Assembly (NCBI GenBank): GCA_903926075.1
Contig: CAIYHQ010000095.1
Coordinates: 1 to 40,561, forward strand
DNA from: an uncultured Methanomicrobiales archaeon
Lineage (GTDB): Archaea; Halobacteriota; Methanomicrobia; Methanomicrobiales; Methanospirillaceae
Direction of reading: 5' to 3'
DNA length: 40,561 nt
In this document: one piece after another, positions 24,823-40,561 of the stretch
How the letters are laid out: every line of letters starts with the position of its first letter
Position numbering within the stretch: position 1 is the first letter of the stretch
Translations under genes and position numbers: made by a program
Notes under the pieces: model-generated
Databases searched by the model: none
What the model saw: only the letters and a program-made list of their open reading frames with translations
Told to the model about the DNA's origin: nothing

Positions 24823-24894
24823 CTCCCCCTACAGGATTCGAACCTATGACCAATTGATTAACAGTCAATTGCTCTACCACTGAGCTAAGGGGGA
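24823..24894 (-). tRNA. tRNA-Asn (anticodon GTT)
   Basis: A complete cloverleaf is visible on the minus strand: acceptor TCCCCCT/AGGGGGA with discriminator G, D-arm AGCTCAGTGGTAGAGC, anticodon stem ATTGA/TCAAT around CTGTTAA, and T-arm with GGTTCGAATCC. CCA is not encoded. It lies exactly between two protein genes, 0 bases from each. Confidence 0.95.
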
Positions 24895-29506: not shown

Positions 29507-29993
29507 TAAATACGACTACAATCGTTTTGGGGCGAAGGGTCAGAGAGTTGGGCAGGCCGTGTTTGATATCATCTCTCGATACCAGCCTATGCAGACTGTA
29601 GGGGAGACTCTCGATGCTTTTGGCCCTGACTATGCCAAGCAGATGGAAGAGTGTATCGATGACAACGAAAAGAAATACACCAACCCTTTTTACATTTTTG
29701 TCCTTACCAAAAAAGAGTTTTGGGCTAATAATGTCCTCAGAAACTACTTCATAGCTCGTCAAACCCCTCCCCATGCCTTTGACATGATGGAGCAGTATTC
29801 AAACTACACCAAGACCCTCTACCTCGTGGATAGCAATAGGGGGAATATAAAGTGTATTTGGACGCTCCCAGGGTTTGATGACTGCATCGTTATCGCTCGA
29901 TGCCCTGAAAACTATGATCCACAATTGGTGAAGTGGGTTGAAGAGTGTTTTACGAGGAAGTTGGATAAGGATAGTTATGGATTTGATGACTAA
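29490..29993 (+). CDS. Conserved hypothetical phage protein, 167 aa
   Basis: ATG 29490 has an AAAGGAT site and overlaps the methyltransferase end by 17 bases. Segments such as RYQPMQTVGETLDAFGPDYA, KYTNPFYIFVLTKKEFWANN and QTPPHAFDMMEQYSNY give a compact alpha/beta protein. I do not recognise the family. The position between portal and scaffold genes suggests a head-related or accessory role. Confidence 0.65.
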   Translation: MSVDLNKYDYNRFGAKGQRVGQAVFDIISRYQPMQTVGETLDAFGPDYAKQMEECIDDNEKKYTNPFYIFVLTKKEFWANNVLRNYFIARQTPPHAFDMMEQYSNYTKTLYLVDSNRGNIKCIWTLPGFDDCIVIARCPENYDPQLVKWVEECFTRKLDKDSYGFDD

Positions 29994-30198
29994 TTGGATT
30001 AGTGTTAAAGATAGATTGCCAGATAATGAAGTATTGGTATTAGGTTATAGAAAAGATAGGTTTGAAGAATGCTTTTTTACTGGTTATTGGGACAAAGGCA
30101 ATTGGTCAATACATCCATCTGGATGGAATTCAGAAGATGATCATATCCGTAATGTAACCCATTGGATGCCCCTTCCCCCACCTCCTGTCATTGAATAG
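29986..30198 (+). CDS. DUF551-family protein, 70 aa
   Basis: MTNWISVKDRLPDNEVLVLG at the start and VTHWMPLPPPP at the end are the hallmarks of DUF551, a small family widespread in phages with unknown function. It overlaps the preceding gene by 8 bases. The last base of its stop codon begins the first of three hairpins. Confidence 0.8.
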   Translation: MTNWISVKDRLPDNEVLVLGYRKDRFEECFFTGYWDKGNWSIHPSGWNSEDDHIRNVTHWMPLPPPPVIE

Positions 30199-31882: not shown

Positions 31883-34037
31883 ATGAGTATAACAACGACT
31901 GCGACTCTGCCATCGCCCGTGCAGCAGACTTTCAGTTTCAAGTTGCTTTCAGTCCCTGTCCCATACATGATTCACAAGATCGCGGCAGATTTGAAAGCAA
32001 TGCCACGTAATGGTGGTACGACCCTTAACATCTAGGGGTCGCTAAATCTTCTCTGATTGACTTGAAAACCTTACCAGGTGATGCTGGAGGCAACAAGGGG
32101 CAAGATATGACAATTACGAATACAAATTTTTTTGATAACATTTTGACAGTAAATAAGATTTGCAAAGGTGTGCATGACCAAAATTCTGTCATTGTATGTA
32201 TTCATAATGAAGTAGACGAAATATTGATTTTATATGAAAAAATCAAAATAAAAAAATCTTTTTGGGTAAAAGAAAGACAAGTAAATTTTTGTCCATTTTG
32301 TGGATTTTCATATCAGCCTGAACGAAGCAAGCGAGAAGACTCTATAACAAACAAAACTATTATAGGAAATTTGTGAAACATATATGTGTACAAAATGGCG
32401 CAATCTGTACTGGTAATGAACATATGTATTTAAGGGCATATTCAATTGACATATGTAATGAGGAAGAAATAAATGATTCAGAATTGTGGAGAGTGACAAA
32501 AGTAAATTTTTGTCCATTTTGTGGCATTAAATCACAAATTGAACTTAGTAAAAATAAAGATTTGGTAAATAGAGATGCGGTGCTCTGAACATTGCAGAAA
32601 TGCAGTGAATGACGTGCAACAGGCGTCATCCTCTAGTGATAGAGAGTAACAAAATTGTAGAATGCGACGGTATAACCCCCTCGCAACAGCTCCTGTGCCT
32701 CTTGGAAATACAGGTGTGACTCCAGCGCCTCAAAATTTAACTGCGCTGAATATTGATGCAAAGATGGATTTTTACGGTACCTATGTATTGCTCAACGAGC
32801 AGGTTACCTTACAGAATCAGGATCCTGTATTAAACGAAGCTGCACAAAGATTAGGCGTGTCGCTTAAAAGTCTAGGCGACAATAAATTTTCTCTAATTGA
32901 CTTGGAACTCCTCGCAGCGTAGGTTGCAGGAAAACAAGGGGCAAGCGAAAGCAGCCTGAACGACTTAACGAGAAAACCTCTTCGGAGGATGCGAAAGTCT
33001 GAACAATATAGTAATATATTGAGGGGATGTCGAAGAACTCCCCCGCCTAGAGATAGGTCAGAAAAGTAACAGATAAAAAAATTGTAGACAAACCGAAGAC
33101 CAGCTGATGCGCGACATGCTCGCCAGTACAGCGACCTTCGTAAACTGTGTTGGTGGTGCTGACGGGGATAACCCAACAGAAATCACCCGCACTGACGTAG
33201 ATTTTGTTGTAAGGACGTTGAGAGGTAATAATGCCTACAGCTTCCTTACAGGCGTAGAGGGCGAAAATCGATTTGGGACCGCCCCAGTACGTGATGCGTA
33301 TTTTGGATTAGGGCATACAAACCTAATCGGACAGTTAGACAATGTTAATGGGTTTATACAGAAATGGAATTACCCAAATCAACAGTCTACATTAGATGCA
33401 GAATGGGGAACTGTAGCCAACATTAGATTTCTTTTATCTAGTATCGGTTCTGTAACTCCCAATGCGTCGATGATAGGGAATGATGTCTATAATTGTTTCT
33501 GCGTTGGAAGAGAAAGTTTCGCAGCAATTGAACAAGATGGGTATTCGGCCCAGTTCATAGAATATGTGAACTTTAAACTTTTGGTAATTGACTTGGAGTG
33601 CCTTGAGGCTGCATAGTCCGAGGTTAACAAGGGGCAAGATATATGAATGAGTTGGAAGCGCATCTTTATGATGTTGATGGAAAAGAAGTAATAATCCCAT
33701 CTGGGTATAACATAGTAATGGGAATAGATTCTTATTGCTTTGTAAAAGCTCCAGTTTTTGACTCAGAATTAGTATATCAGCCTGAACGACTAAACCCAAA
33801 AGGCACTGACAACAGTGCGTGCGATAGTCTGAACAACGCGAATACATAAAGGCGTTGAGGATGGGTCGAAGAACCTATCCCGCCTAGAAATAGGTCAAGA
33901 AAGTAACAGAATGATACCGACCACCCATTTACGATGGGCCACTAGCCCTCAACGCAAGTGTGGGTTATAAATTTGCAGAATGCCCAAAAGTGCTCTGCGA
34001 TCCCTGGCTTCTAAACCTTCGATGCACATTGGCATAA
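31883..34037 (+). CDS. Major capsid protein, N4-gp56 family, split by three group I introns
   Basis: The exons are 31883-32025, 32661-32864, 33088-33558 and 33914-34037; joined they give 942 bases, 313 residues and one open frame. Junction codons read L (GGTTL|MRRYNP), L (RLGVSL|QTEDQL) and I (AQFI|YRPPIYDG). The product follows the N4-gp56 capsid pattern: RRYNPLATAPVPLGNTGVTP, KMDFYGTYVLLNE, QDPVLNEAAQRLGVSL, LMRDMLASTATFV and a C-terminal PPIYDGPLALN / GYKFAECPKVLCDPWLLNLR. Unspliced reading ends quickly after each exon (stops at 32033, 32920 and 33614), so splicing is essential for the capsid. The ribosome site of exon 1 is weak (AGAAG). Family assignment is from memory of the pattern. Confidence 0.88.
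32107..32376 (+). CDS. Intron-encoded CPFCG small protein 1, 89 aa
   Basis: Translation likely starts at ATG 32107, directly after the intron core AAGGGGCAAG, which doubles as its ribosome site. The product (MTITNTNFFDNILTVNK..., VIVCIHNEVDEILILYE, VNFCPFCGFSYQPERSK) has a CxxC motif like one half of a zinc ribbon, plus Cys residues upstream. No LAGLIDADG, GIY-YIG, HNH or PD-(D/E)XK signature is seen. The C-terminal 20 codons run through the intron's P7 strand. It is paralogous to the next ORF. Confidence 0.55.
   Translation: MTITNTNFFDNILTVNKICKGVHDQNSVIVCIHNEVDEILILYEKIKIKKSFWVKERQVNFCPFCGFSYQPERSKREDSITNKTIIGNL
32279..32524 (+). repeat. 25-bp direct repeat marking the duplicated intron ORF
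   Basis: Identical 25-base segments lie at 32279-32303 and 32500-32524. Both encode the VNFCPFCG motif in frame, which indicates that the two intron ORFs arose by duplication. Confidence 0.85.
32373..32588 (+). CDS. Intron-encoded CPFCG small protein 2, 71 aa
   Basis: It starts at a GTG overlapping the stop of the first intron ORF (GTGA), with a TAGGA site, so the two are translationally coupled. The pattern ICVQNGAICTGNEHM ... ELWRVTKVNFCPFCGIKSQ repeats the CxxC module of ORF 1, and here it has two extra Cys in the N-terminal part. It sits wholly in the P8 loop apart from its last codons. The C-terminal end reads through the P8/P7 strands. Function unknown. Confidence 0.5.
   Translation: MKHICVQNGAICTGNEHMYLRAYSIDICNEEEINDSELWRVTKVNFCPFCGIKSQIELSKNKDLVNRDAVL
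32865..33087 (+). ncRNA. Group I intron 2 in the capsid gene, 223 nt, no ORF
   Basis: P1 pairs exon TGTCGCT (32858-32864) with guide GGCGACA (32875-32881), U-G at the splice site; the intron ends in G at 33087. Core AACAAGGGGCAAG is at 32933-32945, with a minimal GC-GAAA-GC hairpin where intron 1 carries an ORF. P7 is GACTT (32962-32966) with AAGTC (32995-32999). P8 is CCTC-TTCG-GAGG (32977-32988). P9 follows, then P9.1 (GGGGA/TCCCC) and P9.2 CCTA-GAGA-TAGG. This is the compact, ORF-free version of the family. Confidence 0.9.
33559..33913 (+). ncRNA. Group I intron 3 in the capsid gene, 355 nt, with one ORF
   Basis: P1 pairs exon GTTCAT (33553-33558) with guide GTGAAC (33566-33571), U-G at the splice site; the intron ends in G at 33913. 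The core AACAAGGGGCAAG is at 33626-33638. P7 is GACTA (33788-33792) with TAGTC (33825-33829). P8 is GCACTG-ACAA-CAGTGC (33803-33818). P9 is CAACGC/GCGTTG, P9.1 is GGATGGGT/ACCTATCC, and P9.2 is CCTA-GAAA-TAGG. An ORF fills the P5/P6 region. Confidence 0.9.
33643..33849 (+). CDS. Intron-encoded ORF, 68 aa, uncertain
   Basis: The ATG follows the core AAGGGGCAAG in the same way as the intron 1 ORF. The product (MNELEAHLYDVDGKEVIIPS, then YCFVKAPVFDSELVYQPERL) has no CPFCG motif and no endonuclease signature. Its last 23 codons are the intron's own P7-P9 sequence. It may be a worn or truncated relative of the intron 1 ORFs, or only the N-terminal 45 residues matter. Confidence 0.35.
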   Translation: MNELEAHLYDVDGKEVIIPSGYNIVMGIDSYCFVKAPVFDSELVYQPERLNPKGTDNSACDSLNNANT

Positions 34038-40404: not shown

Positions 40405-40561
40405 ATGGGCAAACATAAGCATGACGATAAAAAGAAACATGACAAAAAGCATGAGAAATATAAAGAAGACAAGAGGGTGCCTTCATCGGTAGGTGGACAA
40501 TCTAAAGAAGGTAGGAAGAAGGCTGAGATTGAATACCTAAAATCTAAGGGTAAAAAACTTA
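40405..40561 (+). CDS. 5' end of the first virion-internal gene (continues at base 1)
   Basis: ATG 40405 with GAGGT upstream begins MGKHKHDDKKKHDKKHEKYK, a strikingly His/Lys-rich N-terminus. The frame runs to the window edge and continues at positions 1-1226 once the 141-base duplicate is collapsed. Start chosen because the internal GTG has no ribosome site. Confidence 0.9.
   Translation, partial: MGKHKHDDKKKHDKKHEKYKEDKRVPSSVGGQSKEGRKKAEIEYLKSKGKKL
40421..40561. repeat. Terminal direct repeat, right copy
   Basis: Exact duplicate of 1-141; see the left copy. It should be removed once when the genome is circularised. Confidence 0.95.

Follow-up and report, generated by a model that had tools for sequence, protein, structure and literature searches.

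Three group I introns in a phage N4-gp56-type capsid gene and the putative degron tails that such introns may encode

The window analysed here, the whole stretch of 40,561 nucleotides, carries at 31883-34037 on its plus strand an N4-gp56-type capsid gene whose frame is broken three times, by three group I introns. The first and last 141 bases of the contig are identical; this terminal direct repeat suggests a circular assembly, and the contig probably represents the whole genome, of ~40.4 kb. A nucleotide comparison for the nearest named phages found none. This gene, split into four pieces, is the only capsid gene on the contig, so that capsid production would depend on splicing, as had been pointed out in an initial annotation of this DNA. 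The exons, the introns with their pairings to the exons, and the open reading frames (ORFs) inside the introns are as follows:

31883..32025, plus strand: capsid exon 1, 143 nt (from splice-aware alignment with intronless homologues)
32026-32657, plus strand: group I intron 1, 632 nt, at CDS position 143 (spliced alignment, covariance model)
32019-32025 with 32035-32041, plus strand: P1 of intron 1, CGACCCU/GGGGUCG, U.G at the cut; P10 TCTA/TAGA
32107..32376, plus strand: 89-aa ORF within the P6 loop of intron 1, with a CPFCG zinc-ribbon-like motif
32658..32864, plus strand: capsid exon 2, 207 nt (from splice-aware alignment with intronless homologues)
32865-33084, plus strand: group I intron 2, 220 nt, at CDS position 350; an ORF-less minimal ribozyme
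32858-32864 with 32875-32881, plus strand: P1 of intron 2, UGUCGCU/GGCGACA, U.G at the cut; P10 GTCTA/TAGAC
33085..33558, plus strand: capsid exon 3, 474 nt (from splice-aware alignment with intronless homologues)
33559-33913, plus strand: group I intron 3, 355 nt, at CDS position 824, with a small ORF in the P6 loop
33553-33558 with 33566-33571, plus strand: P1 of intron 3, GUUCAU/GUGAAC, U.G at the cut; P10 TAT/ATA
33643..33849, plus strand: 68-aa ORF within the P6 loop of intron 3 that extends into the core (...YQPERLNP...CDSLN)
33914..34037, plus strand: capsid exon 4, 124 nt including the stop (from splice-aware alignment with intronless homologues)

Is the bin also the host of the phage? 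To look for a chlamydial host, G000 was searched with PF01308 and PF03219, which returned nothing, though neither Pfam search matched any control genome. A 16S signature pattern likewise gave nothing in G000. No 16S was found in the bin, and no tmRNA in the bin scored above the cut-off. The bin does carry an archaeal-type EF-1A; together with the lack of a tmRNA above the cut-off, this suggests that the bin is probably not the phage host.

Intron sites were placed by splice-aware alignment to intronless homologues, and a second, protein-profile aligner returned identical sites. Removal of the introns restores the frame exactly, and the joined exons encode 315 amino acids, the typical length in intronless relatives. 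The alignment of the joined product with capsid homologues, which the initial annotation had proposed as a check, bears this out: 45 intronless capsid genes from IMG/VR, with 67-90% protein identity, run uninterrupted over the full length. The spliced product scores 127.6 bits against the TIGR04387 profile (curated cut-off 60), which confirms the earlier assignment to the N4-gp56 family of major capsid proteins, and it also matches phrog_1357, a major head protein.

The earlier exon boundaries need a small revision. All of the 5' sites and the third 3' site had been placed correctly, as had the exon sizes of 143 and 124 nt, while the first two 3' sites lie 3 nt further upstream, and by homologue alignment exons 2 and 3 grow from 204 to 207 nt and from 471 to 474 nt. 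The arithmetic of the 313-residue frame proposed at the time can be reproduced. Intronless relatives, however, read GGTTLRMRRYN and GVSLRQTED at the first two junctions, so that the earlier product is short of one Arg at each of them, and the true product has 315 residues. At their 3' ends, introns 1 and 2 close with ...AAATTG before TAGA, and intron 3 with ...AACAGAATG before ATAC; the final G was a criterion of the site caller, and P10 played no part in the calling.

What identifies the inserts as group I introns? The U-G P1 splice sites described in the initial annotation are present in all three, and their pairing is backed by a control with mismatched partners. In 28 introns that had been mapped without P1, the helix has a mean of 6.75 bp and reaches at least 6 bp in 26 of the 28; when exons were paired with introns from other sites, the mean was 3.35 bp and 7.8% reached at least 6 bp. 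P10, which joins the bases just 5' of the guide to the 3' exon, has a mean of 3.08 bp against 1.47 +/- 0.08 in shuffled pairs. It falls back to background when the 3' site is moved upstream by at least 1 nt or downstream by at least 2 nt.

The conserved core was aligned across 12 introns, with their ORFs removed, over P3, P4, P5, P6, P7, P8, P9, P9.1 and P9.2. In this alignment 94% of cells are paired and 30 of the 47 pairs show changes on both sides. The covariation score is 0.542, compared with 0.189 +/- 0.017 after shuffling and 0.06-0.12 in slid versions; the matching P7, P8, P9, P9.1 and P9.2 helices noticed earlier are thus part of a P3-P9.2 core that covaries. The P3/P7 pseudoknot and the G-C guanosine site in P7 are present in the 12 introns, and P7 is canonical, with a bulged base beside an invariant G-C, and an outer pair that varies among A-U, C-G, G-C and U-A. 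Only a few bases separate P7 from the 3' strand of P3 in all 12, which lack P7.1/P7.2 stems. This spacing makes membership of subgroup IA unlikely.

A covariance model built without any sequence from the window finds intron 2 with 172.2 bits (E 4.9e-51). Introns 1 and 3 are each matched in two halves, with 44.6 + 38.8 and 79.6 + 34.6 bits, respectively, and ORF inserts lie between the halves. Intron 2 also has a fold z of -3.6. Intron 1 carries ORF-bearing inserts in both its P6 loop and its P8 loop (the P8 helices were read by eye). The last residues of its 89-aa ORF (QPERSKRED...) are encoded by the ribozyme core, and against Pfam this ORF gives only weak zinc-ribbon matches with E about 0.04. 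A Pfam search with the 68-aa ORF of intron 3 gave no match. Judged from this architecture, the three introns are almost certainly real and spliced, and the central claim of the initial annotation, that one short N4-gp56 capsid gene contains three group I introns, is supported by P1, P10, the covarying core and the independent covariance model.

One check points the other way if it is taken literally. The initial annotation had proposed a search with the Rfam group I models and had named the lack of a hit as grounds for abandoning the claim; with the E limit raised to 10, Rfam RF00028 still has no match in the window, and it has none in G000 and none at the gathering threshold in seven intron-rich relatives. 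The miss is a blind spot of the Rfam model and not evidence against the introns. Rfam-based annotation misses these introns and would report broken capsid genes.

Might the gene be just that, a pseudogene in decay whose inserts are junk or errors of assembly? Its frame does open only once the three inserts are removed, as such decay would have it. Against this, the dN/dS of the exons is 0.047 relative to the homologue L001 (at a dS of 2.3, which is near saturation), and by this measure the exons are under purifying selection. The gene is also the only capsid gene on a contig with a 141-bp terminal repeat, many independent contigs have the same architecture, and the helices covary. Decay is therefore hardly credible.

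Across IMG/VR, 193 capsid loci were surveyed and 245 introns mapped, in a sample that is enriched for introns and gives no estimate of prevalence. Introns were taken as well supported if P1 reached at least 5 bp and the 3' signature AGTAAYA was present (205 introns, 167 of them unique). Full-length genes in this intron-enriched sample carry zero, one, two, three, four or five introns in 46, 36, 39, 11, 9 and 3 cases, respectively. For example, locus L208, on a contig in a Parachlamydia MAG, has five introns, at CDS positions 38, 143, 432, 502 and 831, all with model matches. Among close relatives there are 38 distinct intron positions in the 948-nt frame, and the number rises to 69 when distant relatives, whose positions are less certain, are counted.

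Is the concentration on this gene a product of searching with it? A scan of IMG/VR for the intron core that made no use of the capsid returned at least 120 loci, most of which have an intron in or beside this capsid gene. Among those listed, 13 loci lack a capsid match; genes for portal, terminase and tape-measure proteins and for other capsids are among their hosts, identified by eye from the translations. Of 26 long records found via the capsid, 13 have no model match and the other 13 match at the capsid position; in G000 the intron model matches only the three capsid introns. There is thus very little doubt that this intron family has repeatedly invaded many sites of one capsid gene. With many related introns at many sites of a single gene, the family is a natural laboratory for changes of target by group I introns.

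How did the introns reach so many sites? In a tree of the short cores, introns at the same site are seldom nearest relatives, in 9 of 50 cases, where shuffling of labels expects 1.8, with a maximum of 7; the nearest relative mostly sits at another site. Introns at different sites may be closely related: L166@552 and L185@543 share 87% identity over 328 of about 348 nt, starting just past the guide, and their guides fit different exons. The family would therefore appear to move between sites, with a guide that is altered or already suited to the new target. The capsid gene may alternatively have been occupied mainly through homing endonuclease targeting and not by spread at the RNA level, a possibility that seems somewhat doubtful. 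Some introns do encode LAGLIDADG proteins (PF00961, E 4.4e-10), many of them antisense, and some have HNH-like ORFs, identified by eye, a representative of which has no Pfam match. However, an ORF of at least 90 aa is found in only 66 of the 167 introns, and not all of these are endonucleases; other introns carry small phage genes in the P6 loop, such as DUF551 or CPFCG zinc-ribbon-like ORFs. Moreover, L090@264 and L204@543 have both guide and target (TTCGGT/ACTG) in common across two sites, as reverse splicing predicts. In the reading preferred here, some copies would have spread by LAGLIDADG/HNH homing and others probably by reverse splicing or recombination.

The initial annotation called the arrangement remarkable, a judgement that needs context, since a split capsid gene in a crAss-like phage (PMC7886860) and single capsid introns (PMC3706429) precede it. 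In the crAss-like zeta group phage assembled as cMAG OLRF01000054, the MCP gene is broken into five fragments, and three of the four gaps contain domains of the group I intron type (PMC7886860). In contrast to the case described here, those phages are large (145-192 kb), many of their genes are invaded and the introns were found via endonuclease domains; neither dozens of sites in one gene nor in-frame tails are described in the passages concerned (PMC7886860). Mycobacteriophage LittleE has a probable group I intron in its capsid gene, with splicing shown by RT-PCR and N-terminal sequencing, but it is a single intron of 819 bp in an HK97-type capsid gene (PMC3706429). Jug phages also carry many short group I introns per genome, some of which cut terL into two or three pieces, and their splicing is backed by metatranscriptomes; their genomes are much larger (360-402 kb) and the introns are spread across many genes (PMC12363816). 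The td, nrdB and nrdD genes of T4 are further examples of phage group I introns in protein genes, and T4 likewise has a peripheral-loop ORF that extends into the core (I-TevI, PMC3073962). The T4 introns carry a group IA annotation; in the capsid introns, by contrast, only a few bases separate P7 from the 3' strand of P3.

A phage needs its capsid protein in hundreds of copies, and assembly can be poisoned by truncated subunits. A capsid gene is thus a poor place for an intron, yet in one phage lineage introns occupy dozens of sites in it. What would happen to a ribosome that reaches an intron on unspliced RNA? With intron 1 retained, the exon frame stops at 32033-32035 and the 50-aa product ends in ...TTLNI, without Ala-Ala. 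In introns 2 and 3 the frame continues further (here and below, tails are written up to the stop codon):

32865..32922, plus strand: in-frame tail of intron 2; 135-aa product ending in ...LKSLGDNKFSLIDLELLAA, stop TAG at 32920-32922
33559..33616, plus strand: in-frame tail of intron 3; 293-aa product ending in ...IEYVNFKLLVIDLECLEAA, stop TAG at 33614-33616

In the window, the endings on the retained introns are SLIDLELLAA for intron 2 and VIDLECLEAA for intron 3, so that the truncated products of introns 2 and 3 carry a C-terminal Ala-Ala and that of intron 1 does not. The same tendency is found in the wider family. Of 167 introns, 79 give an exon-frame peptide that closes with Ala-Ala and 106 one that closes with Ala, compared with 0 and 1 cases of Ala-Ala in the other two frames. 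Among tails of at least 4 aa, Ala-Ala closes 79 of 136 in frame and 1 of 246 in the other frames. As background, 3.3% of predicted ORFs of at least 200 aa on the same contigs end in AA, a figure that includes some ORFs reading through from exon into intron. The commonest tail is (S)SLIDLE(L/C)LAA, and about 17% of tails of at least 10 aa lack a final Ala (e.g., VAIS).

The result recurs in a replicate set of introns found through other P6 variants. There, 67 of 73 capsid introns are in frame, and their tails end in AA in 42 of 73 and in A in 59 of 73, compared with 0 of 146 and 7 of 146 in the other frames. In 19 replicate introns set apart by the lack of a match to this capsid alone, the counts for AA are 8 of 19 against 2 of 38.

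The reading frame of the intron core follows that of the exon. Of 124 introns, 95 have the core motif ATT GAC TTG in register with the exon, where 60.2 +/- 4.3 would be expected if it were independent of phase, and none of 20,000 frame shuffles gave more than 79. With one representative per 80% cluster, 40 of 55 are in frame against 23.9 +/- 3.2. The median in-frame stop comes 54 nt into the intron, compared with 16 and 18 nt for the other two frames. Selection for the earliest possible in-frame stop was also considered, and was rejected on this timing, the exon-frame stops being later than those of the other frames.

Do the tails merely follow from the fold of the ribozyme? The conserved P5 hairpin (CTN GCN GCG TAA) reads LAA and then stop, the P5 region is where 64 of the 79 Ala-Ala tails have their stop codon, and the sequence there is also constrained by pairing; the frame match could then reflect descent. 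With most Ala-Ala tails in one conserved hairpin, their count overstates the number of independent origins. However, descent alone leaves it unexplained that the distance to the core shifts with the insertion phase. Ala-Ala also occurs outside P5: in 5' extensions at site 264 (EGHQLLAA, KKLFECAA, WAKMQEAA and WGKEIYIAA; FKEAA is a further tail at this site), at early stops (KQKYALAA in L136@543, and VGRNSLAA), in long tails (QAEQYALAA and, in L148@232, ...GQAEHYALAA), and at other loci in tails that are out of frame with the core (SALAA, ALLAA, PSLAA and KIVAA). Several of these stops are non-homologous and give tails resembling ssrA, among them ...NEAQAEQYALAA (L171@639 and L172@223), and some end exactly in YALAA. 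As the other two frames stop even earlier, blocking of ribosomes alone would favour those frames, and introns at early sites lack Ala-Ala tails. A by-product of the hairpin is thus an unlikely account of the tails.

Alternatively, the tails may be there to halt translation at a set point in P5 and leave the core free to fold, the peptide sequence being irrelevant. The stops do cluster about 54 nt into the intron, and a review states that most group I introns have a stop just past the 5' splice site, which excludes ribosomes (PMC3073962). By contrast, stops in the other frames, with medians of 16 and 18 nt, would shield the core better, and such blocking would leave the last residues undictated. 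This makes a role in stopping ribosomes alone very unlikely. Selection of the tails as degrons seems likely from the sequences compared here.

The tails differ with the position of the intron in the gene. None of the 25 introns before CDS nt 160 ends in AA, compared with 79 of the 142 after it (Fisher P 1.7e-8), and 20 of the 25 stop within five codons. This effect was spotted post hoc, after the tails, and may be explained in part by intron lineages tied to sites; it survives clustering at 80% (0 of 16 versus 32 of 71, P 3e-4).

How would the introns and their tails work together? In each intron the guide forms P1 with the 5' exon, the U.G pair lying at the cut, and P10 with the 3' exon; two GTP-initiated transesterifications would then remove each intron and yield the 315-aa N4-gp56-type capsid protein. 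On unspliced mRNA, ribosomes would pass from exon into intron. Introns near the start of the gene would halt them almost immediately, while those further in would hold the exon frame and add an ssrA-like tail, typically ...LAA. The long truncated capsid would then be directed to ClpXP-type proteolysis, by a protease that the host is assumed to have, rather than poison assembly. ClpX reads a C-terminal Ala-Ala as the main determinant (PMC7652416), and the chlamydial tag, which ends in VAA, is recognised by chlamydial ClpX (PMC9601184).

As an overall explanation, it is likely that the invading introns are spliced out and that, when retained, those deeper in the gene end the truncated capsid with a degron tail. 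It is probable, in addition, that the arrangement amounts to a built-in quality control, in which the 5' segment of the intron is kept in the frame of the invaded exon and appends a degron mimicking ssrA, while introns close to the start stop translation at once. If this is true, a ribozyme parasite cuts its cost to the host gene at the level of protein, and one gene could tolerate many introns. The frame relations between introns and exons, which are usually ignored, would then carry information.

Multi-intron phage capsid genes have precedent, and it is the putative intron-encoded degron that is the novel case; a search of the open-access literature for group I introns with ssrA-like tags found none. 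In T4 td, nrdB and nrdD, by contrast with the capsid introns, the exon frame stops at or beside the start of the intron, without an Ala-Ala tail. The closest likeness is the tmRNA/ssrA tag (AANDENYALAA), where a C-terminal Ala-Ala marks incomplete proteins (PMC7652416). The difference is that in the capsid genes the intron itself would encode the putative tag in cis, and ordinary translation would append it, with no trans-translation.

The intron core of the capsid gene is not confined to that gene. Genes for portal, terminase and tape-measure proteins, and for other capsids, contain the same core (loci L096, L196, L133, L088, L154, L186, L191, L104, L107, L108, and L151); the interrupted genes were named by eye. 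In two of these introns, the exon frame that continues into the retained intron terminates in ...ASVMAA* (L186) or ...ASVMVA* (L191).

What is carried by these introns? Two of those in the window hold an ORF in the P6 loop of the ribozyme:

32107-32376, P6-loop ORF of intron 1, C-terminal tail of the QPER(L/S)(N/K)... type
33643-33849, P6-loop ORF of intron 3, C-terminal tail of the same type

This tail is common to otherwise unrelated small P6-loop ORFs in the window introns and their relatives, because the ribozyme core encodes the 3' ends of the ORFs. DUF551 proteins and CPFCG zinc-ribbon-like proteins are among the cargo. DUF551, which some introns in relatives encode, also occurs in the window as a stand-alone gene upstream of the capsid gene (29938-30198). 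Other introns, including that at capsid CDS position 350 in L148, encode LAGLIDADG endonucleases antisense to the capsid gene.

The long introns at positions 36 of L138 and 38 of L185 share 74.5% identity and are inserted 2 nt apart in the capsid gene, with differing guides; the pair looks as if one intron had slid along the gene.

Which organisms might the related phages infect? A related capsid gene is present in four GTDB genomes, three of which are MAGs of Chlamydiota (L206, Simkaniaceae; L207, Parachlamydiaceae; L208, Parachlamydia) and one a Methylococcaceae MAG. Although binning errors are possible, the chlamydial majority is a hint that environmental chlamydiae have tailed phages of this kind.

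The window contig itself has probably been misbinned. Its bin, G000, contains an EF-1A of archaeal type, and no tmRNA scored above the cut-off there. Since positions 1-141 are repeated directly at 40421-40561 (141 bp), the assembly is probably circular and complete, at about 40.4 kb. The contig carries a sole tRNA gene:

24823-24894, minus strand, tRNA-Asn (GTT)
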